A stretch of 64,000 nt of DNA. It comes from Tieghemostelium lacteum. Its lineage: Eukaryota > Evosea > Eumycetozoa > Dictyosteliales > Raperosteliaceae. The stretch spans positions 310,001-374,000 of the forward strand of contig LODT01000025.1 in NCBI GenBank assembly GCA_001606155.1, in the 5' to 3' direction. The notes beneath the pieces were generated by a model, which was not told where the DNA came from, made no database searches, and was given only the letters and a program-made list of their open reading frames with translations. Positions 10,402 through 55,479 of this stretch are shown piece after piece (positions within the stretch are counted from its first letter, which is position 1; each line of letters opens with the position of its first letter). Both the position numbers and the translations under genes were made by a program.

Positions 10402-11787
10402 TTAATATGGGTACATTGTAATATACCATTCAACAAATTCTCTTTCATCGATGGAACCACTGTAGTTTCTATCGATAGAGTAAAAGAGTAATTTAGATTG
10501 ACCTTTTGAGAAATAGACACCAAGATATTGAATGCATCTCTTGAATTCTTTTTTACTTAGAGTACCACTGTAGTTACTATCAAATGTGCGGAAAGCAGCT
10601 GAGGCTTGCATCATTTTAGCAGCCAAATGTGGGGGAAGTCCAACTGGAAGGACAAAAGCTGCTGTTCTTACATATGGAGTTGCATAAGAGTAAGATGGTC
10701 TTACATAGGTTGTTGAGACTGCACCCATACCAACTCCCATACCTACACCAACACCCATACCTACACCCATACCAACACCTGGCATCATACCTACACCCAT
10801 ACCAACACCTGGTTGTGGCATCATACCTACACCTCCTACAGCTCCTGGATAGGCTTGTGGATAACCCATAGCTGGTTTACCCATCATTTGTGGTGGATAA
10901 CCTGGCATACCTGGTTGTGGCATCATACCTGGTTGACCCATCATTGGTTGTTGTGGTGGATAACCTGGCATACCTGGTTGACCCATCATTGGTTGTTGTG
11001 GATAACCTCCTGGAATTGCACCTTGTTGTGGTGGATAACCTGGCATACCTGGTTGTTGTGGTGGGTAACCTTGCATACCTTGTTGTTGTGGTGGGTAGCC
11101 TGGCATACCTGGCTGTTGTTGTGGTGGGTAAGCACCTTGTGGTTGTTGTGGATATGCACCTGGTTTACCTGGATAGGCGCCTTGTGGTTGTTGTGGTGGA
11201 TATGCACCTTGTTGTTGTTGTGGTGGGTAAGCACCTTGTTGTGGTTGTTGTGGTGGATATGCACCTTGTTGTGGTTGTTGACCTGGATATGCACCAACAG
11301 TACCAGCACCTGGAGCTTGTTGTGGTGGGTAAGCACCTTGTTGTGGTTGTTGTGGTGGATATGCACCTTGTTGTGGTTGTTGACCTGGATATGCACCTTG
11401 TTGTGTTTGTTGACCTGGATAAGCACCAACAGTACCAGCACCTGGAACTGCTTGTTGTTGTGGTGGATAAGCACCTTGTTGTGGTTGTTGGCCTGGATAA
11501 GCACCAACAGTACCAGCACCTGGAGCTTGTTGTTGTGGTGGATAGGCACCTTGTGGTGGTGGTGTTGATGTATTAGGTGGTGGTGGATAAGCACCTTGTG
11601 GTGGAGGTGGGGTTGATGTATTTGGTGGTGGAGGATAGGCACCTTGAGGTGGTGGAGGATAGGCACCTTGTGGTGGTGGAGTTGATGTTGCACCTGTACC
11701 TCCTGGCATGACTTTAATTGGCATTTGTGACATACCGTCAGCATAGGTACCTTGTGGTGGTGGATTTGAAGGTGGTTGATAACTCAT
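10402..11787 (-). CDS. cbpP: EF-hand calcium-binding protein with long GAYP-repeat N-terminus (CBP-P like)
   Basis: One exon encodes 461 residues. Residues 1-360 are almost entirely Pro/Gln/Gly/Tyr/Ala/Met, built of repeats such as [24 protein letters not shown] and GVGMGVGM. The C-terminal ~85 residues hold two EF-hands with canonical 12-residue loops, [12 protein letters not shown] and [12 protein letters not shown], after a helix ([16 protein letters not shown]) like those of penta-EF-hand or ALG-2-type proteins. Length and layout match D. discoideum calcium-binding protein P as I remember it, so the symbol is offered with reserve. Such proteins bind calcium reversibly, and the YPPQQ-type tail suggests multivalent or phase-separating behaviour (inference). 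The opposite strand is open for long distances only because the repeats lack stops in other frames. Confidence 0.85.
10820..11700. repeat. Tandem degenerate repeats encoding GAYPPQQ / MPGYPPQQ
   Basis: Imperfect units of roughly 21-30 bases (gtggatatgcaccttgttg-like) are repeated dozens of times inside the EF-hand gene. Some larger blocks, such as the one encoding [14 protein letters not shown], recur four times (near 11290, 11430, 11500 and 11560), which suggests recent internal duplication. Confidence 0.85.
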
Positions 11788-12280
11788 TTGATTACTTTAA
11801 TGATGAATTGTAAAATTAAAAAAAAAAAAAAAAAAAAAATTAATTTCTAAGGTCTTCAAGTCATAAAATTAAACTATCACACAAAATGGTGTGTTTAAAA
11901 AAAAAGATTTCTTAAACACAAATATCAAATGCTTTGAATTTTAATGTGAAATACAACTTTTTTATAACATTTCTAATTATAAAACTTGAATAATTAATCC
12001 TATTTCAGAGCTGAACTTTTTGATTAAATTTCTTTACATTAATAACGATATAAATTTTCAATAATGTTATCTCTATATTAGTTTTAGATTTTTGATCCTG
12101 TGAAAATAGTATTTAAATTAAGTTCAATTCTAATGGTTATAGAGTTCCTATGATTTTGATTGTTCAATATTAAAAAGTAATAATGACGGATTGCAAAAAC
12201 GATAATCGATTACTGTATAAAATTTTTTTTTTTTTTTACTCTTTTTTTTTTCAGATTTGATAGTTTTTAAATAAATAAAG
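11788..12280. other. Divergent promoter region between EF-hand and MAM33 genes
   Basis: No gene is seen. It holds a poly-A tract (11819-11840) next to the EF-hand gene start, and long T tracts at 12222-12252 ending ttttttcag, about 25 bases before the MAM33 ATG. These are homopolymer tracts typical of dictyostelid promoters; a 5'-UTR intron ending at the cag is possible. Confidence 0.45.
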
Positions 12281-14782: not shown

Positions 14783-15350
14783 TTTCTACTGTTAGGCACT
14801 CTGTTGTTTAATATATTATGTACAAAGATAAGTTTGTTGTGAAGATCAATAGCAAAACCAAACTTTTAAAATCTGATTACTGCAATTTATACTCCTTACT
14901 ATCCACAAAAAAATGATAAATAACAAAAAAAAAAAAAAAAAAAAATTTTTTTTGATTTAAATTTTTAATTAATATAAAATAGAACTTCAAAGATTTAAAA
15001 ACTATACTTCTAGAATTATTATTATCTAAAGATAAGAAACATTATTTTTAAAATCTATATTTTTAAAAATATTTATTATAAAATTTTAATTGTATTGCCA
15101 TAGAATATTTCACATATATATAAACTTGGGATATAAAATTTAATTAAAATATATTAAGAAATTAATGATATAATAGCTTCTAATGATTTCCCAAAAAAAA
15201 ATGCATAAAAAAATTAAAAATAAAAGGCGAATAAGGTGGGGCCGAATCCCGATAAGATCAAAACGAATAACTTGTTTATTTTTTTTTTTTTTAAATAGTG
15301 CTATATACATTCATTCATTTCACTGTGTTTATTCAGATAATAACAGGAAA
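14783..15350. other. Divergent promoter region upstream of PurL
   Basis: Poly-A and poly-T tracts (14925-14952) and several TATA-like strings are present. The frame upstream of the PurL ATG stays open back to 15183, but the segment 15267-15336 reads like a 5'-UTR intron (gtttatttttttttttt...ttattcag), so I do not treat the upstream frame as coding. Confidence 0.45.
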
Positions 15351-18300
15351 ATGAAAATTAAACACTATTTCAGAAAACCAGCAATTTCAGAACATGAGAT
15401 TAAGAAATTAATTCACAAGAGTTCAAATTCAAAGATTCAGTCTATAGAGAGTGAATATTGTTTCAATGTAGAAGTTGAAAAAGATACAACAGAAACTGAG
15501 GAACAGACACTAGTTTGGCTACTTTCAGAGACATTTGAACCACAGAATTTCTCATGTCATGCCTCATTCCTAAAAACTCAGTCCCAGAATGACGTCATTG
15601 TTGAAGTAGGACCACGTATGAATTTTACAACTACCTATTCTTCTAATGCCGTATCCATTTGCAGATCATGTAATATTGAATCTGTTCAGAGAATTGAAAG
15701 ATCTAAGAGATTTCTTATTCATTCCTCGGAAGCTTTGACACCGTTGGAAATTGGTAAATTTGTAGAGATGATACATGACCGTATGACTGAATGTATTTAC
15801 AAAGAGGCCATTCAATCGTTCAAGAATGATATGCTTTCTGAAAGTACATTACAGCAGCAACAACAGGTCAAAACCATTCCAGTTCTAGAACAAGGAAGAG
15901 CAGCATTGGAACAGATAAACAAAGATATGGGTTTAGCTTTTGACGAAGCTGATTTGAATCTCTATACCGATCTCTTTAAAAATCATCTCAAACGTAACCC
16001 AACTGAAGTTGAATGCTTCGATATCGGTCAATCAAATTCCGAGCATTCTAGGTATGTTTCATTCCTTTTTTTAACTTTTAGATGTATACTAATTATTTGA
16101 ATTTGTCTGTGTGTGTGGTTTTAAATTATAAATAGACATTGGTTTTTTAATGGAAATTTAGTAATTGATGGAGAGAAACAAGATAAAACTCTATTTCAAA
16201 TTGTAAAGAATACATTAAAAGTTAATGTTGGAAATTCATTAATTGCATTCTGTGATAATTCAAGTGCTATTAAGGGATTTGATACTAAGGTTTTAGTACC
16301 ATCTAGTGCAACAGGTCCAAGTAAATTCATAGAGAGTGAAAGAAACCAACCTATTCTCTTTACAGCTGAGACTCATAACTTCCCAAGTGGTGTTGCACCA
16401 TTTCCAGGTGCTGAAACTGGTACTGGTGGAAGAATTAGAGATACTCATGCAACAGGTAGAGGTTCACTCGTTGTAGCAGGTACTGTTGGGTACTCAGTAG
16501 GTCAATTACTAATTCCAGGCTATAACCTACCATGGGAGACCAAAGACTATGGCTATCCTGATAATCTAGCTACTCCATTAAAAATTGAGATTGAGGCTTC
16601 TAATGGTGCTTCAGATTATGGAAATAAGTTTGGTGAACCTGTTATTATAGGGTTTACTCGTTCTTATGGTCAAACACTTCCAAATGGAGAGAGAAGAGAG
16701 TATATCAAACCTATAATGTTTAGTGGTGGTATTGGGTTTATGGATGAAAGACATTTGAAGAAAGATCAACCTGAGTTGGGTATGACTATTGTTAAAGCTG
16801 GTGGACCTGCTTTTAGAATTGGTATGGGAGGTGGCAGTGCAAGTTCAATGGTTGGAGGTGATAATAAATCAGAATTAGATTTCTCAGCTGTACAAAGAGG
16901 TGATGCTGAAATGGGTCAGAAACTCAACAGAATCATTAGAGCTTGTGTTGAAGTTGATATGAATAAGGAATCTAATCAAAAGAATCCTATTGTATCTGTA
17001 CATGATCAAGGTGCTGGTGGGGCTGGTAATGTGTGTAAAGAGATTGTTGATCCATTAGGTGCAAAGATTTATCTTGATAGATTCCATTTGGGTGATAAGA
17101 CTTTGACTCCTATGGAAATCTGGGGTGCTGAATACCAAGAACAAGATGCACTTCTTATTAAAGATCAAGATAAAGAGTTCCTACAAAAGGTATCTAAGCG
17201 TGAGAGATTACCTATTGCTTTCGTTGGTGAGGTTTCTGGAGATGGTCAAGCTCAACTTATCGGAAACCAAGGTCAACTTTATGTAGATTTACCTTTAGAA
17301 AAGGTACTTCAAAAAATGCCTCCAAAGACATTTAACATGTCGAGAAAACAAAAGAAATTACTCCCATTTTGTCTACCAAAGGAACTAGAGCAAAGTGATG
17401 TTGAGGATATAGTTAAGGAGTCCCTATCTAGAGTTTTAAGATTACTTTCAGTTGGTAGTAAAAGATTCCTTATTAATAAGGTTGATCGTGCTGTAACAGG
17501 TCTTGTAGCAAGACAACAATGTGTAGGTCCACTACATACACCATTATCTAATGTAGCTGTTATTGCATCTAGTTACTTTGAAAAAACTGGTGCTGCAACA
17601 TCCATTGGTGAACAACCAATCAAAGGTTTCATATCTGCAAAATCAATGGCATATCTAACTGTAGGTGAAGCAATGACTAATTTAGTATGGGCAAGTATAA
17701 CTGATATTAAGGATATTAAATGTTCTGGTAACTGGATGTGGGCTGCTAAACTTGAGGGTGAAGGATCAGAACTCTATGATGCCGCTGTTGAAATGCATGA
17801 TACTATGGTACAAATTGGTATTGCTATTGATGGAGGTAAGGATTCTTTGAGTATGGCTGCAAAGGCTCCAAATGGTGAAGTTGTAAAGGCACCTGGAACA
17901 TTGGTAGTTTCAACTTATGTATCTTGTGATGATATTACCAAGACTATAACTCCAGATTTGAAATTGTCAAGCCAACAAGACAGTGTACTGATATATATTG
18001 ATTTGGGTTGTGGAAATAATTTCTTGGGTGGTTCAGCATTAACTCAGGTTTTCAATCAAATTGGTGATGGTCAACCACATAGAGATACAAACCTTTTGGT
18101 AAGGGTATTTCAAGCTGTTCAACAATTGGTTAAAGAGGAACTGATTACAGCTGGTCATGATAGATCTGATGGAGGTTTGATTACAACTCTTATTGAAATG
18201 TCTATATCTGGTAACAGAGGTTGTGTTATTGATTTACAATCTGGTAACAATTCTGACAGAATGAATATTATTAAATTACTATTCAATGAGGAATTGGGTA

Positions 18301-19463
18301 TGGTTATTGAACTAAAGAAAGAGAATTTAGAAAAAGTTAAAACTATTCTATCTAATCTACCCTACCATGTCATTGGTTATACCCATATTGGTACTGATGA
18401 AGATAGATTCCAACTGTCAGTTAATGGAAAATTGATTGTAAATCAAACTCTAGAGGAACTAACTAAGCAGTGGGAAGAGACATCCTATCAATTGGAATTG
18501 ATTCAAGTTCCAAATCCAAATTCAGTAAATTCAGAATTTAATCAAGTTTTGAAAAGATCTAAAAAGGGTAAAGGGTTAGGTCCAACCTATACACTTACCT
18601 ATACAGATTTGAGTAATGAAATTAAATTACTCACTCAACAGTCCCGTCCAAAAGTTGTTATTCTCCGTGAGGAAGGGTCTAATGGTGACAGAGAAATGGC
18701 AGGTGCATTCTATTTTGCTGGATTTGAACCATGGGATGTTACAATGTCAGATCTTATTCAAGGCCATGTTGATATCTCTCAGAGTCAATTCAAAGGTATT
18801 GCATTTGTTGGTGGATTTTCTTATGCAGATGTTATGGATTCTAGTAAAGGTTGGGCAGGTTCTATTAAATTCCATCAAGCAGTTGCCAAACAATTTGAAC
18901 AATTCTATATGAGACCAGACACATTTTCACTAGGTCTTTGTAATGGTTGTCAATTGATGGCTTTATTAGGTTGGGTACCTTGGAGAGATATTCCACAAGT
19001 TAATCAACCAAGATTTATTCATAATAAATCTGGTAAATTTGAGTCCAGATGGGTTACACTTCGTGTAATGCCATCACCAGCAATCTTATTAAAAGGTATG
19101 GAAGGTTCAGTTTTAGGTTGTTGGTCACAACATGGTGAAGGTCAAGCATTTTTCCAAGATCAACAAATACTAGACCAATGTAAACAATTACAATTGGCAC
19201 CTATTCGTTATGTAGATGATGAATCTCAAATTACAGAAACCTATCCACTCAACCCATCAGGTACACCAGAGGGTATTGCAGGTCTTTGCTCTAAAGATGG
19301 CAGACATCTTGCACTGATGCCACATCCTGAAAGATCATTTTTACAATGGCAATGGCCATGGACTCCACAAAATATCAAATCTCAATGGTCAGGTGTAAAT
19401 AACACTAGTCCATGGATTAGAATATTCCAAAATGCTAGAATATTTGTCGGTGATTCTAAATAA
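15351..19463 (+). CDS. purL: Phosphoribosylformylglycinamidine synthase (FGAM synthase)
   Basis: Two exons, 15351-16051 and 16136-19463, give 1342 residues, the expected size of the large eukaryote/proteobacterial-type enzyme. It performs step four of de novo purine synthesis (FGAR + Gln + ATP to FGAM). Seen in order: the N-terminal PurS-like domain (MKIKHYFRKPAISEHEIKK), SEHSRHWFF spanning the splice, AETHNFPSGVAPFPGAETGT, RDTHATGRG, GGIGFMDERHL, the first synthetase domain's VHDQGAGGAGN, the second one's DGGKDSLSMAA, and a C-terminal class I glutamine amidotransferase with nucleophile in LGLCNGCQLMALLGW and the His/Glu of MPHPERSFLQWQWPW. ATG 15351 is preferred because the conserved N-terminus begins there and the upstream segment looks like an intron with poly-T. 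The enzyme is cytosolic. Confidence 0.97.
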
Positions 19464-19561
19464 ATTAACTTTTTTTGTTATTTACATTTATATATCTATC
19501 TACTGTTTTTTAAGTTATTATTATAGTATTACAAATTTGTGTTTATTGAGATATCCAATAT

Positions 19562-19969
19562 TTAATTTTTATCATTATTAGCAGCACGATCACCACCATA
19601 TAAAATCTTTTTGGATTCCCATTCTTTTAGGGCATCAGTATTTTCAGATACTTTTTTACGTAATTCATCAATGTTAACTAATTGATCTGGGTCCTTGTTT
19701 AATAATTTACTTCCCCATCTTTGGCTCTTTTCACTTATATCATTCTAGTTTTATAGTTAGATATCAAATAAAATGGGTGAATATAGGAGGGATATTACTT
19801 ACAGTATAGTTTGGATCACTATCCCAATCATCTTCTTCATCTACAACCTATTTTCAAATTTCAATTAGTAAAGTGGTCAAATTTCATGTACTATGAAAAA
19901 ACATACATTTGATGGAGTTTTATTTACAACAGATACACCGTGATTTACAGTTTTATCATATACTGACAT
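19562..19969 (-). CDS. Minimal cortactin/HS1 N-terminal-acidic-like protein (Arp2/3-binding DDW)
   Basis: Three exons, 19969-19907, 19847-19803 and 19744-19562, all phase 0, encode 96 residues. Residues 22-45 contain an acidic DDW motif followed by DSDPNYTNDISEKSQRWGSK; human cortactin has [20 protein letters not shown] at the same relative place. The similarity continues: NIDELRKKV aligns with cortactin NIHKLRENV, LKEWE with LKEKE, and YGG with the start of the first cortactin repeat. Then the protein stops: there are no 37-residue F-actin-binding repeats, Pro-rich region or SH3 domain. In cortactin and HS1 this N-terminal acidic region binds and weakly activates the Arp2/3 complex through DDW. 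The likely role, by inference, is a small Arp2/3 regulator or branch-junction ligand. The three small exons would be easy for automatic annotation to miss. The gene is convergent with PurL (98 bases between stops). Confidence 0.82.
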
Positions 19970-20596
19970 TTTTGCACAATAAACAAATAACTAAAAATTT
20001 TTCAAAAAAAAAATCCATCCACATTTCTCCCAAATATTTCAAAATCTCGATATTTATTTAAAATTGTTTGAATAAACTGATAACCTTGATAACTTTTTAT
20101 CCAAAATACAGTATTGATTAACTATTAAGGTAATCGCAAACTATTATGCAATCAATAGTTTTTTTTTCTCCATAATGTTTATCTATGACTTCTAATGTAT
20201 GTATAAAATCTTTGGTATTTAATATAGGAACTTGGTATATTATGTTCTTGAAAGCTTCTAAAATTTATGATATTTTAATAAATACTCACTTTCCAACAAT
20301 TTGCATAAGTATTTGAAATATTAATTATACCTCAACGCTCATCAGAAACTTTATTCATTCTAAATTGTTTTTTTTTAGACAATAATGAATCTCCATTTTA
20401 TTGAAATCAATAGTTTCAATTAATATTTAAATCCTAAATTATAAATGAAAAAAATAAAGAGACGCCATAACGTTCCAAAGCATTGTAAAAATCTGAAACC
20501 GGATCGTAATCTAGATTTTTTAGATTTTTAAAACAAGATGGGAATGTATTCAGTTATTTTTTTTTTTTAGTTTATATTTGACATATTATTTTAAAG
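19970..20596. other. Divergent intergenic region (627 bases)
   Basis: AT-rich, with no frame of substance on either strand. It likely holds both promoters: the one for the cortactin-like gene leftward and the one for the lectin/TIG gene rightward. A T tract at 20557-20568 lies about 30 bases before the lectin gene ATG. Confidence 0.4.
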
Positions 20597-23500
20597 ATGA
20601 AATTCGAATCATTAGTATTACTGATTGTTTCTTTAGTTTTTATCCAAATTAGTTTGGTTAATTCTTGGGGAACTCCAGTTACATTTTTAGGTCACACTTA
20701 CCAGATTATCTTGTGGAATGAAACCACAATTAATGCTGATTGGAGTAGTGCCTACCAGGATGCCATAAACAGAGGTGGATATATGGCAACTTTTTTGAAA
20801 CAAGCTGAAAGTAGTTTTGTAATCAATTCATTTAATTTAACAACAAGTAGGTATTAATTATATGGACCGCACAGTAATAAATATTAACATTTCTAAAATT
20901 ATTTAGATTTACTTCGTCCATTTATAGGAGGTAATTCGTTGGCAACCTATGGAAAGAAATTCTATTGGGAAGCAGGTCCTGAAAAGGGAGAATTATTCTA
21001 TGATAGAGATATGAATAAAGGTTATTTATATAATAATTGGTCACCTAATCAACCAGATAGAGCAAATCCACAAACTGGGCAGGGTACAGAGTTTTATGTA
21101 AATCTACATCCAGCCATGTGGAATGACTATCAAATTAATGCATCAGCAGTTTTAGGATATGTCTTAGAAACTGGTGGTGAAAATGACCCATACATGTCCT
21201 CCTTGGAAACTGATAGTATTGAAATTGTTTTTAAAAATGTAAAAGGTTTCCAAAGAAATGGAATTACAATTAATGTTGTATCAGTATCCGGTAACAAAGC
21301 ATCTTTTCAATGTCCTTTTAAAAAGTGGCTTTCCGATACATCTTTTAGTTGTTATAAACATTATACAATGTCTGGACAATATAATATAACTATAGCTGAT
21401 GGCGTAAGAACTCCATTTACTATAGAACTAGTTCATCCAAATAGTATGTATAAAACACCTACCATATTTAGTTCCAAAATATAATATTAATACAATATTG
21501 TAATATATAGTGCCTTATGTATCCGCTGTAGTTCCACCAACAAATATGGTAACTGGTGGTATTTTTACAATTAATGGAGCATCATTCTCAGATAATATAA
21601 GTGAATTGACTGTATTAATATCAAGTACATTAGTACCTTGCAACCCAACTGCATATATTTTACCTCATAGATCATTTACATGCACACTAGCAGCTGATTT
21701 AACCGCCAATGTGGCACAGATTACAGTTGGTGTCAATGGAATTGTTTTGGAACGTAGAACTAGAATTCCATTCTATAATCAATTAACTGGTCACTTGGTT
21801 ATTCAAGGTGGTAACTTTTTCTGGGAACCTTACATGACCTATAACTATGAAGGTAAGGGTGCAGTACCATTTACACCATTAGATGATTATGTATTGTTAG
21901 GTCTTCTTGAAAACACTCCACAATGTTTCAATACCACTTATGACAGTGCAACAACTAGTTATATATTAGCAGATAGTCCCAAAGCTGGTCAAGCTGTTGT
22001 AACTATTTCAGGATCCCCAAGTGTTGCTACATGTCAAAAGACAGTTTTTGCAGGTTGTGGTTCTCTAGTTGACCCAAATGTTACTAGCAGTAGAACTGCT
22101 CCATTAGGTTGGTTGAATTCCAAACCATGGTTTGTCTCCCCTATAACAACATCATGCAAATTATCTTATCTCTTTGATTTGCCAAATTTTAATCCATATT
22201 TTACCGAAAACCCAAAGGCATATTTGATCTCAACCTATGGTGGTTTAATCTATGTGCCAGTAACAGGTTTAAGACTCACCAGTAGTAAATATGAAATGTA
22301 CCAAGGTTCTAGTAAATTTACACAATATCTTTCACCAAATTGGGAATTCATGGCATTGGAAGTTAATATTCCACCTGGTACAGGTACACATTTTATGGAG
22401 AATGGTTTCTTGACTGTTTCAGTGGATGGTAAATCATCTGGTCTCTCACAGTCATACATCGGATATCTTCCACCAACTATTAATACAACAACAGCCAATC
22501 CACCCACCAATGGAACTTTACTTACTGTCTTTGGAGATAGTTTTGGAGCCGATCCATCAAAGATCTCAATTACAGTAACTTTCCAAACCACAGGTCAACA
22601 ATCTACATTTAGTCCTAATATACTCGTACCACATCAACAATTGACATTTAATTTGATACCAGGTTCAGGTTACTTTTCAGTAAAAGTAAATGTTGATGGT
22701 CAAAATTCAACTTATCATTCGAATTACCATATACCAGTTATCAATAACCACATTCAAAACCAGAAATTAATAACACTAAGTGTTGATAACAGTCTTGTAA
22801 ACTATGTACAATCCATGATGTCTCTTACATTAAACTCCATTACTATACCATTAGTATATAACAACTATACCAGTATTTCATTTACCCTTCCTGATGATGC
22901 ATATGACGGACCTTTGATTCTAACTGTTGATGGACTTCCTTCTGAGATTTATAATCTCACATTAGTACCAATTCTCAATGATATTCAATGGGTTGGTAGT
23001 GGTAATGAAACACAATTAACAGGTCACTTTTTATATCAACCAGATTCTATTACTATTGGAGGTGTGCAATGTGCTTCTATTTCCGTTACATTTTCACAAT
23101 CCATTTCATGTACACCAACTGGAACTGGTATCAATTTAAATACTATTGTTAAACTTGGTAATGGTTTTTCATCTAATACCGTATTGTTCTCTTATCAAGC
23201 TGTTATTGACACTGCTACCAATCCAAGTGGCCAAGAAACTCTGGAGATTAACGGTAACAATTTCAACCAAGATTCTATTATAAATATCCAAAATGCAGAT
23301 GGAACATTTACTATCATTACTCCATCTAATATTGACTTGGATTTCCAAAACGCTACTATTCCACTCACACAAAAGAACACTTTTGTATCCGTTACAACCA
23401 ATGGAATGACAAGTAATCTTAAAGAATTTAAATTGACACCATTTGTAACAAGTATCACAAGTATTTCAACATTAGGTGGAGAAGTAACCATCTTGGGTAA

Positions 23501-26489
23501 CTATCTAAATGTTGATAATGTAAAAGGAATTACAGTACCAGTTTTAGTGAAAATTGGACCAACTATTCAATGTCAGAGCCCAAAATTAGCCTTACCAACT
23601 GATAACCAAAAACTCCTTTGTCAAGTTCCACCAGGTACTGGATCCAATTTAAATGTAACTGTTAGTGTTGATGGAATTGTAAGTAACTCTAATATACAAT
23701 TCTCCTTTGGTAAACCATCCATTGCCACAGCTTTCCAAAATCCACTAAATCTAAAACAATTAATAATCACTGGTAACAATTTTGGAACTGAAATTTCCGA
23801 CATCATTGTAAAACTAAACCAAGACTCTGTTCCGTTAAATTGCATATTCAATCAATCTAACTTGAACTGTGACCTTTTACAATCAAGTAGTGGTGGATAC
23901 GTTAGTTTACAAGTTGTAGATCAACAAAGTGACAATTATAACCTAGAACTTACTCCAATAATCGTTAGTGTTGATCCAGTAGCTTCAACAGCAACATCAA
24001 TTACAATCAATGGTTGGTTCTTGAGATCTAATGCAATAATAACAGATTATACTGGTGAGATTGGTGGTGTACAATGTAATACCATAAACTCTTATGCAGC
24101 TCAAGATTATGTAATTTGCGCTCTATCTGATAACTCTGTACTAGTATCTAATCATACTCCATCAGTTATAGTTTCAGTTCAAAGTAAACCAAGTAATTCT
24201 CTTCCAGTTCAATATAGTACACCAACTATTGCTCTAGTAGTCCAAATTGGAAGAAATATGAAAATCCAAGGTAACACATTCGGTAATTTAGACTCATTAC
24301 CAGCTATTACATATGGTTCAGAGACTTTAAATGGTTGTACCTTCACAACTATTCAGAGTGAAATTTCATGTCCAATTCCAGTAACTAGTGTTAATGGTCT
24401 AGTTACACTATCAGTCTACCAAGGTCAAGATGATTTCCAACTTAATTTGACACCTATTCTAGAATCAGTTGCATATACTCTTACAAGTGGTGGTGTTACT
24501 AATATCACTGGTGTATACTTGAACGATATATTCAGTGGAGTTATACCACTATCTATTGTATCTATTCCATTTGCAACTTCAACATGTGACAATATTCAAT
24601 TGGATACTGTAAACAATGTTATTCACTGTCAAGTTCCTGGAGGATTACCAGCTATTGTATTATTTAGAATTGATATTTCTGGATCATTTGGCATACAAAG
24701 TAATAGTTTAAGATTTGAATATCTACCACCATCAGTTTTACACTACTCTCAAAGTCAATTTATATTAACTTTAACAGGTGAGAGTTTTGGTTTGACCTCT
24801 TATGCCTCAACATTGAGTGTACACGGATACCCATCACCTATAAATTGTGAAATCATAGTAAACCATGTAACCATTACCTGTGATATTGAATATGCCGAAT
24901 CACAATTACTAAATGGTGAAGCTAAAGTTTCAAGTAACACTGATACATCTGAAGCCTTTACATTAAACTTTACACCTATTTTAATAGAAAGTACCAAAGC
25001 TCAAACCAAAGGTGGTTTGATTACCGTAACTGGTCATTTCTTATCACTAAAGAATTCAAACTCCCAAAACAATATAATTTCCGTATCAACCAATTTAGGC
25101 GATGCAATTGCAGATAAATCATTAAGTTCCAATTCAATGATTGTAAAAGTCCCATCTGGTGCACATGGTATTGAAAATCAACTTAAATTGACTATAAATG
25201 GAAAAGAATCTAATAACATTTCATTCTCTGCTGAAAATCCATCACTTGTAGATACCTATACCAACGGTAAACTTTATTATCCAGGTGATGGTGGATATGT
25301 AACTATTGTAGGAACCAACTTTATACTTAACAATAATGACCTAGTTCAAGTAACCATAGGAGGAAACCAATGTGAACAACCAAATGTAATCTCTGATACT
25401 CAACTGATATGCCACTACAAAGACCTAGTAAAACCAGTAGATCAATTTGGTCTTGGTGTTGTAGTTACTTGCGATGGTTTATCTAGTGATGAGATGTTCT
25501 TGTTCCTCTATGACAGTAACTCAGCAAGTTGTCAAGGTACACCACAATGTTCAGGAAATGGAAATTGCTTTAATGGTAGATGCCTATGTACAGGTAACTT
25601 TACAGGTCAATCATGTGAAATTGATGGAAATACATCAACACCACAACAACCAGGAACTGTAGACCCAGATGGTGCTAAATTCTCCAATTTCTCTGTATTC
25701 TTTACACATATTAGAGAAGTTGAAGCAACAACTAAAAAAGTAGTTTTAATCTACCCAGTTTCAGAACTTAAATGGAATGTTACCAAGAACAGTACTACAC
25801 AACTTCAATCTGTTGGTATAATCAATGGAACTTCTATTAAAGTTCAAGTAAATACCACACTTTTCTTGAAACCTGAAACTATTCACTTTGCAGGCGATAT
25901 CTTACAAATGACAGCTAATTCACTTAAATATCAACTATCTATTGAACAATGGCCATTTACCAGTAAATTCAATACCTTAGAGATCATCTATGCCATGCAA
26001 TCACCACAAAGTGAACAAATATGTAAAGAGACACTTTCAAGTAACCAAACTATCGACAATCAAGATGATATCAGAACTATTACAGTTCAGTTGAATGGAC
26101 AGGTATTTATATCACAATTCTCCAAGAGAATCTATTCCGATGGAAGAGTTACAACCACATCAACTAAACTCCTTGATAAATCTGATTCAATCTACCAAAC
26201 TCCATTCTATCAAAATCAACAGAACCTAACTGTAGTATCTCTAACTACTCCACATTTCCAAAATTCCACTATAATTGATCCATCATTCCAATTACTTTTA
26301 CAATCTAATCTCCAAAAAACCACATCAGATACCTGTTCACAAACTGAATCTAAAAAATCTTTATGGTGGATTTCATTGATTGTTGTTGGTGCTGCTGGAG
26401 GTACTGCTGCTGCTATTGGAACTATAATTTACAAAAAAAAGCAAGCTAAAGTTTCCAAATATGAAAGTTCTCTAAGATCTATAAATTGA
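20597..26489 (+). CDS. C-type lectin / IPT-TIG repeat / EGF / ComC-like type I membrane protein
   Basis: Three exons, 20597-20846, 20907-21443 and 21511-26489, give 1921 residues; both introns (60 and 67 bases) restore the frame exactly. In order: a signal peptide (residues 1-23, FESLVLLIVSLVFIQISLVNS); a C-type lectin-like domain (about 30-180, with PFIGG, LYNNWSPNQPD and the FYVNLHPAMWNDY motif); many immunoglobulin-like IPT/TIG domains, each opening with strings such as TGGIFTINGASF, NGTLLTVFGDSFG, GGEVTILGNYL, GGVTNITGVYL or GGLITVTGHFL; one EGF module (CSGNGNCFNGRCLCTGNFTG); a ~230-residue beta-rich region like the ComC supersandwich domain; a transmembrane helix (WWISLIVVGAAGGTAAAIGTII); and a short basic tail. 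TIG and ComC-type proteins mediate cell-cell adhesion, recognition and signalling in dictyostelid development. Many N-glycosylation sequons are present. The ligand is unknown. Confidence 0.9.
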
Positions 26490-30991: not shown

Positions 30992-33900
30992 TTATATATG
31001 TGGAGAAATTGGTACTACTGGTGTAGATGGTACTTTAAGTATCAATGCTGAGAATGCACGTGCTAATTGTGGTATTGGATTTTGATTAGGTTGAGAGAGA
31101 AGTGATTTTGAAGCTACTTTATTCAAAAGTCTCAATAGTGCACCAATGATTGCTTTGTTGTCATCTGATAACTTGTATATCAAATCTTGTACTGCCTGAA
31201 GTCTTTGTTCTTCATTTTCAATACCCTCAGCAGCTAACCAATCATTAAATAGTGATTTTGTAAGGAATGGATCTACAGTTTGGAAAAAGTGTTTAAGTAG
31301 CTCTGATGTCATATATACATCTACTTGTTCAGGTTTCATTGTAGATCCATTTACTTTTAGAGAATCTGAATATTTATGACCACCAGCACCATCATCTTTA
31401 GCAATATTTGCAGATTCAATGAGAACATCTGCAGAGAGATCAGCTATATTCTCCAAATAACTTGATGTCTTCATTAGTATAGGTGACTTTAATGTTGACT
31501 TTATTTGACTAGTTGTCGAAGAAGGGAATAATAATTCATAATTTCTAATCATCATCTCCATTACCAGTGACCCAGATAAAGTATCTTTACCATTAGAATT
31601 ATTCAACTTCTTAATAGTCTCAATAGATTGTTTTAATATTTCCTCACCTTCATCTTTACCATTATTATTATTACTTATAGAGTTATTATTATTTACATTT
31701 TCATGATTTTCATCCACTACCACTATATTATTAATTGGTTTTGTAATATTATTACTAGTATTAATGATAGAATCTATTCCATTACTAATATGATTTGGTT
31801 TTGGACTAGGTTTTGGTGGTGGTTGTTGTTGTTGTTGTTGCTGTTGCTGTTGTTGTTGTTGAACTTGCTGTTGTTGTACTTGAGGTTGTTGCTGTTGTTG
31901 GTTATTAACAACAGATTTAATGTTAGAAGAATATCTTGGATTAATATTGAAATTTAAGAATCTTTGAGATTGTTTATCGTGTAGAGCATGATAAAGCATG
32001 TGAACTTGATGTTCAAGACCACGAACTCTTGCGACATCAACCATTCTTTCATCAGTGATGAGGTCATGACCACATTCTAGAATTTGAACGATACCAGAGA
32101 TATAGATCTCAGATGCAATTCTAGCAGCTTCACGACGTGAGAGTTCTCTTATTAGGTCTTGTCGTGACTGGAAATGATCTTTAAGTCTTTTACTACAAGA
32201 CTGGAATACAGGATGTAACTTAAAGTAATCTGAATAGTAACCCTCTTTGATTTGTAGATAGATTCTTTCGAGTTCTATATCCCATTTAGAGAGATCACGT
32301 TCAATGATATTCACTCTCTCGTAAAGTGATGTAACTTCATTACAAACCGATACAAATCTATCACGTAACTCTCTTACTGATCTCTTTTCAATATTTAGAA
32401 AACTGATGGCAGATTCAATCTTTCTCTTTCTGATATCCAATTCCTCGTATTGTTTCATTTCTTTGGATTTTAATTTCTTTTTTTTTCTAAATAGTTCTAG
32501 AGTCTCATCTACTGCTAGTTTCTGATTGACAAGATCCTGAAGAAAGTTAAGAATGGTAGTGGAAACAGCTTCACAATCACCAACAATTTTAGCATTTTCT
32601 TTTAGTTCAGTGTTTACTTGTTTCTTTGTTATTCTATGTTCAAGAATCTGATGAATCTCTGAAGAGAGGTTATGTAGATTCGATGTCAAAAGTACTCTGT
32701 TTTTAAATTGAATTCTCTCTAGTCTATATTTTGCCATATAAAGTACCTCTGATATCTTTTGGTTAATCTCTTCTTCAGTTGAGTTATTATTAATATTCAA
32801 ATTCAAATTCTGAGCTAAATTACTTAACTGTTCCTTTTTATTCAGTACTGGTGAACCACTACTATTTAGATTATCTCTACTACCATTGATACTCTTTCCA
32901 TTACCATTAGTGGCATTATGAAAAAGATTTGGTGATGAATTGGATGAATATCCAGATTTGAATTGGTTTACTGGTGTTGGTTTATTTACAGGTGATTGTA
33001 ATGACAGTGGTGACTTATTAATATTATTACTATTATAATAGTTACCCTGTGATTTTGGTGGTGGTGTACTTTGGTTTAATGGTGGTTGATGATGTTGTTG
33101 TTGTTGTTGTTGGTATGGTGACTGTACATTACTAATATTACTAATACTAGTGGGAGAAGGTGATGATGATTTTAGTTGAGGTGATTGTTTGGATTGTTTT
33201 AGTAATTGGATTTTCTTTTTTTTTAATTCCAAACTTTGTTGTACTTGATTTAGTTGGTCAGATTGATCTTTATTATTTTGTTTAAGTTTTTGAATATCTG
33301 ACATTATAGATTCTAATTTATCTTTATCAATTACAATACTATTAGGATTGAGGTTACTTTGTTGGTTACTATTGTGTTGCTGTTGCTGTTGTTGTTGAAT
33401 ATTAAAATTATTAGCACCATTAATTAAAACACTGTTGTTATCGGAAATTAATTCCTTTAGAGAATCTTCAATGGATGTTAGATTCTTTGTAGCGGCTACA
33501 CTACTACTGGCACCATTACCATTGATATTGACTAACTCATTCAATTTGGAATCTTCTGAATATATTCCGATAATCTCCCGAGACAAAGGTCCGATAGTTG
33601 ATTTTCTAAGTACCTCTCTAAGATCAGAGATTTCATCAATCAATTCCTGACTTTTTAAATCATTCCTATGCAAGGTATTATTTGATTTACTTTTAGGTAG
33701 TGAAGATGTTGGTACATTTAATTGATTATTTGACATCATTTTCTTTAGACTCTTAATATCAATAACCCTGTCTTCATTTAACTCAATTGAAGTTTTTCCC
33801 TAAATTTACAATAATATACAAAAAATATATATTTATATATATTCAAATAAATTTACAAAATTAATACTTTTTACAAATATTGGTACAAGTGGCTTTAGAA

Positions 33901-53644: not shown

Positions 53645-55368
53645 CTAATAATCAGTCATTAAAGTATCAACGATTTGATATCTTATGGTATCTGGGGATG
53701 GTAAATTAGTGTTTTGGTAATAGGAGACTATACACAATTCATTTGACATATTTGATAATTTCAAATTGGATATTTTTTCTTGTAGTCTTTGTAGTTCTAA
53801 TGTGGAATCTTTTAAATAAAAATTTAATGGAGGAATTTGGAAAAATAATGGCTTTACATATGTAATGTTAACATTAATATAAAATAATAAGATTCTTTAA
53901 AAAAATATACATACAGCATCATAATGCAAAATTAATTCAATTTCACCAGTTTCATCAGCAACAATAAACTTTGCTAAATATATATAACTTACATCATTGG
54001 ATTGGCAATATTTACAAATAGGTAGATCAACTAATTTAGGTCCAGAATCTAAATTATAAATTGTATTGGTTGGAGTAGCTCTATCACATCTCTTACAGAG
54101 AATCTGTGTGAAATCTTGTACATTCAATGGGAAATGTTGTTTTAATACACCACTGATTAGATACTTATTAGGACATTGTCTACTAGCAATAACATCCTGT
54201 ATAGTGGATACTGGTTGTAACCCAGAATATTCAGTTCCTATTTAAATAGTTTTAGAAAATAAATAAATATATGGTTATTGAAGAGTGTAGGGTATTATAT
54301 AGTAATAATCACACACATACTTGTTAGTTGTCTACCTCTATTATTTTTCATAGATTTATCAGAAATAGTTTTAAAATTCTCTTTTGGATCAATAATGGAA
54401 CTTGGTTCTGATGTATTAGGTCCATTGTAATTGTCAATAGCTTTACCATAGTCATCTTTAAGTTTTAAAACCATTATATTATCATTTTCTAACTTTTGTA
54501 TTTTAGTTGTAAATTGAAACTTCAATTCTAGAACATTTTGATACTGTTTACAATATATTCGTTCAATGTATAGCCAATCACCTTTTTTAAAGTTTTCAAA
54601 AATGTCTATGGTTTTTTGTTCAAATGCAGTTGCATAGATAACCATACCTAGTTTATCTTCATAAGCTGCTTGACCATGACCAGTACCATCCCACAAACCT
54701 ACTGACAATCTCTTTGGCGGTCCAAATATAGGTTTTATACTAACAATCTGACATGTCAAAGTAGCATAACATCCAACCACTAAATCACCAATCCTATTAA
54801 TAAATGCATTATTTGAGTTTTTAAATGAATTTTTTGCAAGATCAGGATTGAAGTGTTGTGCGGCATTTGAGGCATTGAATACATTACTATTGTTATTATT
54901 GGTATTACGTTGTTCTGGGTGAGCATAATTGTCTAAACCAGATTCCAGTAATCTCTCATAGAACTGTCTGAGTTGTTGAAATGCTGCTTCATCATTACTA
55001 TTAAAATTTAAATTACCTCTAAGTGATATTGGTTCATTAGCGTCATTCTGAATAACTATTTTAGTAGAATTGATAGCATCTAGATTTGCAGTCCCTAGTT
55101 TATGATCCCCTGTTTTTGTAATTTTTAAATCATGGAATCTTATAATTGTACCAGGTTTAATAAACTCTATATAATGATCATCTTTAAAGAATAAATTGAT
55201 ACCAAGAGTCTCTGTTTCCAAAGTTTCGTCTGTAACTTTTAATGTAATAAAATAATCTTCTTTTGATTTCTTTATCTCTGATGCTCGTACTACTACACAA
55301 TATATTGAATATAATGTTCCAGTTTGTGTAATATTTTTAATTTTCCTATATATTATTTGGTTATTCAT
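53645..55368 (-). CDS. pot1: POT1-like telomere single-strand-binding protein
   Basis: Three exons, 55368-54321, 54237-53915 and 53851-53645, give 525 residues; all splices keep frame. OB-fold 1 (about 12-130) contains GTLYSIYCVVVRASEIKKSK, VTDETLETETLGINLFF and GTIIRFHDLKI, matching POT1 G.IVNVYGVV, IVDQT and GDIVRFHRLK. OB-fold 2 (about 190-300) has CYATLTCQIVSIKPI, LSVGLWDGTG and GDWLYIERIY, matching YFDLTCQLL, LLKVWDGT and GSFLRIYSL. A third OB-like part in exon 2 carries CKRC and CKYC, 23 residues apart, then FIVADETGEIELILHYDA. POT1 binds the telomeric G-strand overhang and recruits or limits telomerase. The human Holliday-junction-resolvase-like insert is absent. The 3' exon would be missed without splicing. 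Confidence 0.88.
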
Positions 55369-55479
55369 TTTTTTTACTTTGTCAGCAATTACTCTGTTGT
55401 GAAATTCAGAGAAATCTCATAGGTCATATATAAGATAAAAAAAAAAAAAATTTTCATTTTAATAATAAACATCTTGATA

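Follow-up and report, generated by a model that had tools for sequence, protein, structure and literature searches.

The window analysed here, a stretch of 64,000 nucleotides from Tieghemostelium lacteum (GenBank assembly GCA_001606155.1, contig LODT01000025.1, positions 310,001 to 374,000), carries on its minus strand a short three-exon reading frame with an acidic DDW motif. The question raised by this locus is whether the frame encodes a free-standing counterpart of the NtA of cortactin and, if so, how such a protein would act on the Arp2/3 complex. The features of the locus, in window coordinates, are listed below together with the evidence used for each.

19562..19969, minus strand: whole gene, ATG to TAA, encoding a 96-aa stand-alone cortactin-NtA-like protein (reading frame and PDB match)
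19907..19969, minus strand: exon 1, 63 bases, residues 1-21, N-terminal extension (H-x-V-S resembling cortactin residues 8-11, weak)
19848..19906, minus strand: intron 1, 59 bases, GTATGT..TAG, phase 0 (splice signals)
19803..19847, minus strand: exon 2, 45 bases, residues 22-36, with the acidic motif (reading frame)
19803..19832, minus strand: DDWDSDPNYT, residues 27-36, counterpart of cortactin 20-29, the inverted acidic domain (PDB match)
19745..19802, minus strand: intron 2, 58 bases, GTAAGT..TAG, phase 0 (splice signals)
19562..19744, minus strand: exon 3, 183 bases, residues 37-96 and the stop codon (reading frame)
19673..19744, minus strand: residues 37-60, counterpart of the cortactin loop 30-54 over Arp3 (shuffle z 12.4)
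19607..19672, minus strand: residues 61-82, counterpart of the cortactin helix I55-T76 (shuffles and predicted helix)
19592..19600, minus strand: YGG, residues 85-87, weakly resembling the start of cortactin repeat 1 (alignment)
19542..19547, minus strand: AATAAA, possible polyadenylation signal, 14 bases past the TAA (sequence)

Re-translation of the minus strand returned the coordinates, the exon sizes of 63, 45 and 183 bases, the length of 96 aa and the motifs as described in the initial annotation. The codon usage analysis, trained on two neighbouring ORFs, gave +0.41 bits per codon for the joined frame and -0.54 and -0.32 for the other two frames, and both introns scored about zero or below on the same measure. 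GC content was 0.24 and 0.28 in the introns versus 0.29-0.36 in the exons, and GC at third positions was 0.155 in the gene versus 0.195 in its neighbours. The enumeration of alternative splicing, with introns limited to 40-200 bases, yielded 283 two-intron and 8 one-intron open solutions at the locus. The proposed 96-aa model was the second longest among the two-intron solutions; the longest, of 101 aa, differed solely by a GTACAT intron-1 donor located 15 bases downstream. Since splicing alone leaves many solutions, the three-exon model was chosen because of its homology to cortactin. Exon 1 rests on the frame, the codon usage and a weak similarity, because residues 1-36 searched by themselves against the PDB did not find cortactin; 127 of 5000 shuffles reached the cortactin score of exon 1, and an Mto2 match of residues 1-36 (0.1) was taken as chance. 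At the level of sequence, the cortactin-NtA-like gene was confirmed as real.

Homology to cortactin was analysed by phmmer against the PDB chain sequences (177,635 distinct). The 96-aa protein gave two matches below E 0.1, and both were cortactin (8TAH, 3.6e-11; 8P94, 2.9e-10). Five filovirus GP2 matches (E 0.12-0.37) and the designed-coil matches (E 0.12 and above) were taken as chance. Cortactin was still the top match when residues 37-96 were searched alone, without the DDW motif (6.2e-5 and 4.7e-4, the next match being at 0.12), indicating that the homology spans the NtA and involves more than the common DDW. Each segment was further scored against cortactin in comparison with 5000 shuffles. 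The score of the full protein was reached by none of them (z 18.8), as was that of the loop at residues 37-59 (z 12.4), and the helix segment at residues 60-79, the weakest core segment tested apart, was equalled by 1 of 5000 (z 6.0). In the reverse direction, the mammalian NtA used as query on the 23.3-Mb genome hit one locus, this gene only (3.5e-4, 42% identity), and the 96-aa protein searched against its own genome found only its own three exons. The likeness to the cortactin/HS1 N-terminus that had been noticed at first sight thus held as homology to the cortactin NtA over the acidic motif, the loop and the helix, as supported by the PDB search, the shuffles and the reverse search. Acidic-plus-tryptophan motifs for the same Arp3 site occur in NPFs and Arpin (PMC10613254), which could speak for convergence on an acidic Arp3-binding motif without shared ancestry with cortactin; this is extremely improbable, as the segment without the acidic motif matched cortactin first and the loop scored so far above its shuffles by itself. 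No Pfam model matched the 96-aa protein even at E 10, so that a Pfam-based annotation would miss the gene, whose exons of 63 and 45 bases are also easy to overlook, and the single NCBIfam match (E 0.094) was regarded as meaningless.

The segments of the protein were mapped one by one onto cortactin. DDWDSDPNYT is identical to cortactin 20-29 at 5 of 10 positions, with mostly conservative replacements at the remainder, and the position of cortactin D27 is taken by N34. The loop is the best conserved segment, with 10 of its first 16 positions identical. The single-sequence AlphaFold2 model (mean pLDDT 61.8) placed a helix at residues 61-85, with pLDDT of 84 for residues 61-70 and 79 for residues 71-80, and also a helix at residues 33-51, where cortactin has a meandering loop. 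The hydrophobic moment of helix 61-82 was not unusual (689/5000 shuffles), and that of the cortactin helix was no better (1652/5000). The two proteins have in common the DDW motif, an ND-[IV]-SEK-x-QRWG-x-K loop and an I-x-x-LR-x-x-V helix, with 45% identity over cortactin 30-73. Of the "same order and spacing" claimed by the initial annotation, the order was retained, whereas the spacing is only approximate: the amoeba protein is 7 residues longer before DDW, 1 residue shorter in the loop and 5 residues shorter before YGG. The likeness of YGG to cortactin is too short to count as evidence, and the YGG tail (residues 80-96) alone was weak (172/5000 shuffles). Identity to HS1/HCLS1 was 48% in a three-sequence alignment.

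In architecture the amoeba protein differs from both relatives, having 96 aa versus 546 in the 8P94 chain and lacking the repeats, the helical domain and the SH3 of cortactin. HS1 also differs in having repeats, which Pfam recognises as 4 stretches in its sequence, and it carries an SH3 domain. PF02218, the model of the 37-residue F-actin-binding cortactin repeat, matched the cortactin and HS1 sequences, and the same search did not find it in the 96-aa protein, nor was a Pfam match to SH3 obtained there; as proposed earlier, the protein has no F-actin-binding repeats or SH3 of its own that Pfam recognises. PF02218 and the cortactin repeat sequence found nothing in the whole genome, in a search with no positive control in a eukaryote, and the same kind of genome search was able to recover Arp3 (73% identity) and the NtA (42%). 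The absence of repeats elsewhere in the genome is therefore likely, short of proven, as no control genome gave a signal. The result suggests that the NtA device can exist without the filament-binding repeats of cortactin.

The protein stops just past YGG, where repeat 1 of cortactin begins, so that the gene could be taken for a decaying, non-functional piece of a once longer cortactin, although the YGG match is weak. This reading is very unlikely. The frame is open over three exons with canonical splice sites and coding-like codon usage, and the strong conservation of the Arp3-contacting segments argues for selection. Downstream lies a convergent gene for phosphoribosylformylglycinamidine synthase (Pfam GATase_5, FGAR-AT_PurM_N-like and AIRS_C) with its stop at 19463; because only 98 bases separate the two stops, any further cortactin part at the 3' side would overlap this gene. 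Two simple repeat patterns also found nothing in 15001-24000 on either strand.

How a free-standing NtA would act can be read from the published structures of cortactin. In the inactive Arp2/3 complex (8TAH), cortactin 20-29, the only part visible, act as an inverted acidic domain that binds between subdomains 3 and 4 of Arp3, at a site common to NPFs, Arpin and cortactin (PMC10613254). Cort1-76 was reported to lack F-actin binding, yet to synergise with NPFs, for which residues flanking the motif on either side are needed, and to raise NPF-driven polymerisation (PMC10613254). At the branch (8P94), the NtA wraps activated Arp3, and residues 21-79 touch each of its four subdomains as well as ArpC2; residues 24-54 meander over Arp3, and the helix 55-76, placed beside the hinge helix of Arp3, supports both the W-loop and the daughter filament's first subunit (PMC11102864). 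The same study found that the NtA alone slows debranching, less than the full-length protein, and that the repeats add grip along the daughter filament (PMC11102864). The suggestion that the segment after the acidic motif has a contact surface of its own is supported, as that surface is already visible for cortactin in the branch structure.

On this basis the gene probably encodes a free-standing cortactin NtA that acts as a small clamp for activated Arp3, a mechanism that we infer on good grounds, every binding and cellular step included. W29 and the surrounding acids would occupy the basic pocket that lies between subdomains 3 and 4 of Arp3, residues 37-60 would cross the Arp3 surface, and helix 61-82 would sit in the cleft beside the hinge helix and the W-loop. 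Binding would favour Arp3 in its activated state, as found at the branch, and would slow debranching. The protein may also help displace the C-A segment of WASP/SCAR, a step that is doubtful because displacement as the source of NPF synergy was rejected in PMC10613254 and favoured in PMC11102864. Being repeat-less, the protein would be expected to bind branch junctions and not filament sides, and would form a weaker, quickly exchanging small clamp where cortactin lays a long staple on the daughter filament. The same binding could have the opposite effect, in which the protein competes with the acidic segments of WASP/SCAR and damps nucleation like Arpin, with no filament tether. The common Arp3 site is consistent with such a competitor, as are the lowering of NPF-driven activation by cortactin at high concentration (PMC10613254) and the failure to find F-actin repeats in the protein or its genome. 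Damping is nevertheless unlikely, given that Cort1-76 raises polymerisation and the NtA alone protects branches; moreover, the acidic motif by itself would suffice for an inhibitor, yet conservation is highest in the loop, which in cortactin becomes ordered on activated Arp3. A clamp on activated Arp3 is preferred over a plain acidic competitor because this loop is seen at the branch and is not visible in the inactive complex.

Arp3 of the same genome was located on contig C18 within 397832-399230, minus strand, with 289/414 identities to vertebrate Arp3. Of the 10 basic pocket residues named for 8TAH, 8 stay basic (R230 is replaced by Q and K251 by T), and the hinge helix (10/10) and the W-loop (8/8) are identical to those of vertebrates. 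The Arp3 "cortactin loop" 155-164, contacted in 8P94, is not conserved and is one residue shorter (SRQVGERTLT vs SKNATE-NLT); this divergence might alter the contact with the helix and could be a lineage-specific change of partner. Arp3 of S. pombe likewise keeps 8/10 pocket basics and an identical hinge helix and W-loop, and cortactin is reported not to be conserved in yeast (PMC6057921). Pocket conservation was accordingly not informative as a test of co-evolution, and the comparison indicates compatibility, because the S. pombe protein scores equally. As a separate observation, the position equivalent to S. pombe Y402 is V in this Arp3 when counted by hand, and PMC11673790 gives I for Tieghemostelium lacteum.

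Other proteins that act on the Arp2/3 complex were also compared. Yeast Abp1, a type-II NPF, stabilises branches, as is predicted for the amoeba protein, and likewise uses acidic motifs (PMC6057921), and differs in having an ADF-homology domain and an SH3; a cortactin-type loop is not mentioned in the relevant passages of PMC6057921. Arpin and the WASP-family acidic domains bind the same Arp3 site as cortactin, whereas their acidic motif is C-terminal and of opposite polarity (PMC10613254), and the loop and helix of cortactin are not described for them in the portions of the literature cited here.

The NtA-only form may be ancestral, reduced or gained by transfer. In two published surveys cortactin arises no earlier than Holozoa, one of them placing it "since Holozoa" after a search of 151 proteomes (PMC4824007). 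In the open-access literature on cortactin in amoebozoa, including Dictyostelium and Tieghemostelium, and in Capsaspora, no amoebozoan NtA was named among the matches listed; one may have been reported before or be deposited in a database without a name. The Holozoa-only distribution in the surveys (PMC4824007) would fit a horizontal gain in which an animal or another holozoan supplied the segment encoding the NtA. Such a gain is improbable, however, since identity to mammalian cortactin over the loop and helix is only 45%, and the AT-rich codon usage, like that of the neighbours, and the two short introns suggest long residence. A search for a viral carrier found none either: the viral contigs searched gave 3, 40 and 3 pattern matches with the own protein, the three-sequence alignment and the mammalian NtA, respectively, none of which was confirmed. 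The three-sequence alignment also gave 115 pattern matches in prokaryote species contigs, and none was confirmed. As a tentative view, for which the case is somewhat short of even, the NtA may predate Holozoa, going back at least to the ancestor that Amoebozoa share with animals, and may have begun as a free-standing clamp of activated Arp3, to which animal cortactin later added the F-actin repeats and SH3.

Judged from the data above, the protein is a free-standing NtA homologous to that of cortactin, and by architecture it is not a cortactin. With an NtA-only protein occurring naturally in an amoeba, the contact that stabilises branches would no longer be confined to Holozoa, and the amoeba cell would allow the effect of the NtA to be separated from filament binding and from SH3 signalling. 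Because dictyostelids lend themselves to genetics, the in vivo role of the NtA itself is directly testable.

Several other genes were noted in the window. The large protein adjacent to the NtA gene (20582-26489, plus strand) contains IPT/TIG repeats, ComC supersandwich and EGF-like domains by Pfam, and by eye a membrane segment at its C-terminus; a TIG/ComC_SSD protein of this kind fits a dictyostelid-like gene content. Immediately upstream of it, two ORFs appear C-type-lectin-like by eye, with no Pfam match. The frame at 10402-11796, minus strand, encodes long GAYPPQQ-type repeats followed by EF-hands, of penta-EF-hand style by eye, and its repeat region also leaves long, probably spurious frames at 10717-11568 (plus strand) and 10986-11783 (minus strand). 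A POT1-like telomere single-strand binding protein is encoded at 54295-55416, minus strand (PF02765, 1.5e-11; PF16686, 1.7e-5, below the cut-off), and a RhoGAP domain protein (3.9e-13) with glutamine-rich stretches at 30992-33799, minus strand.
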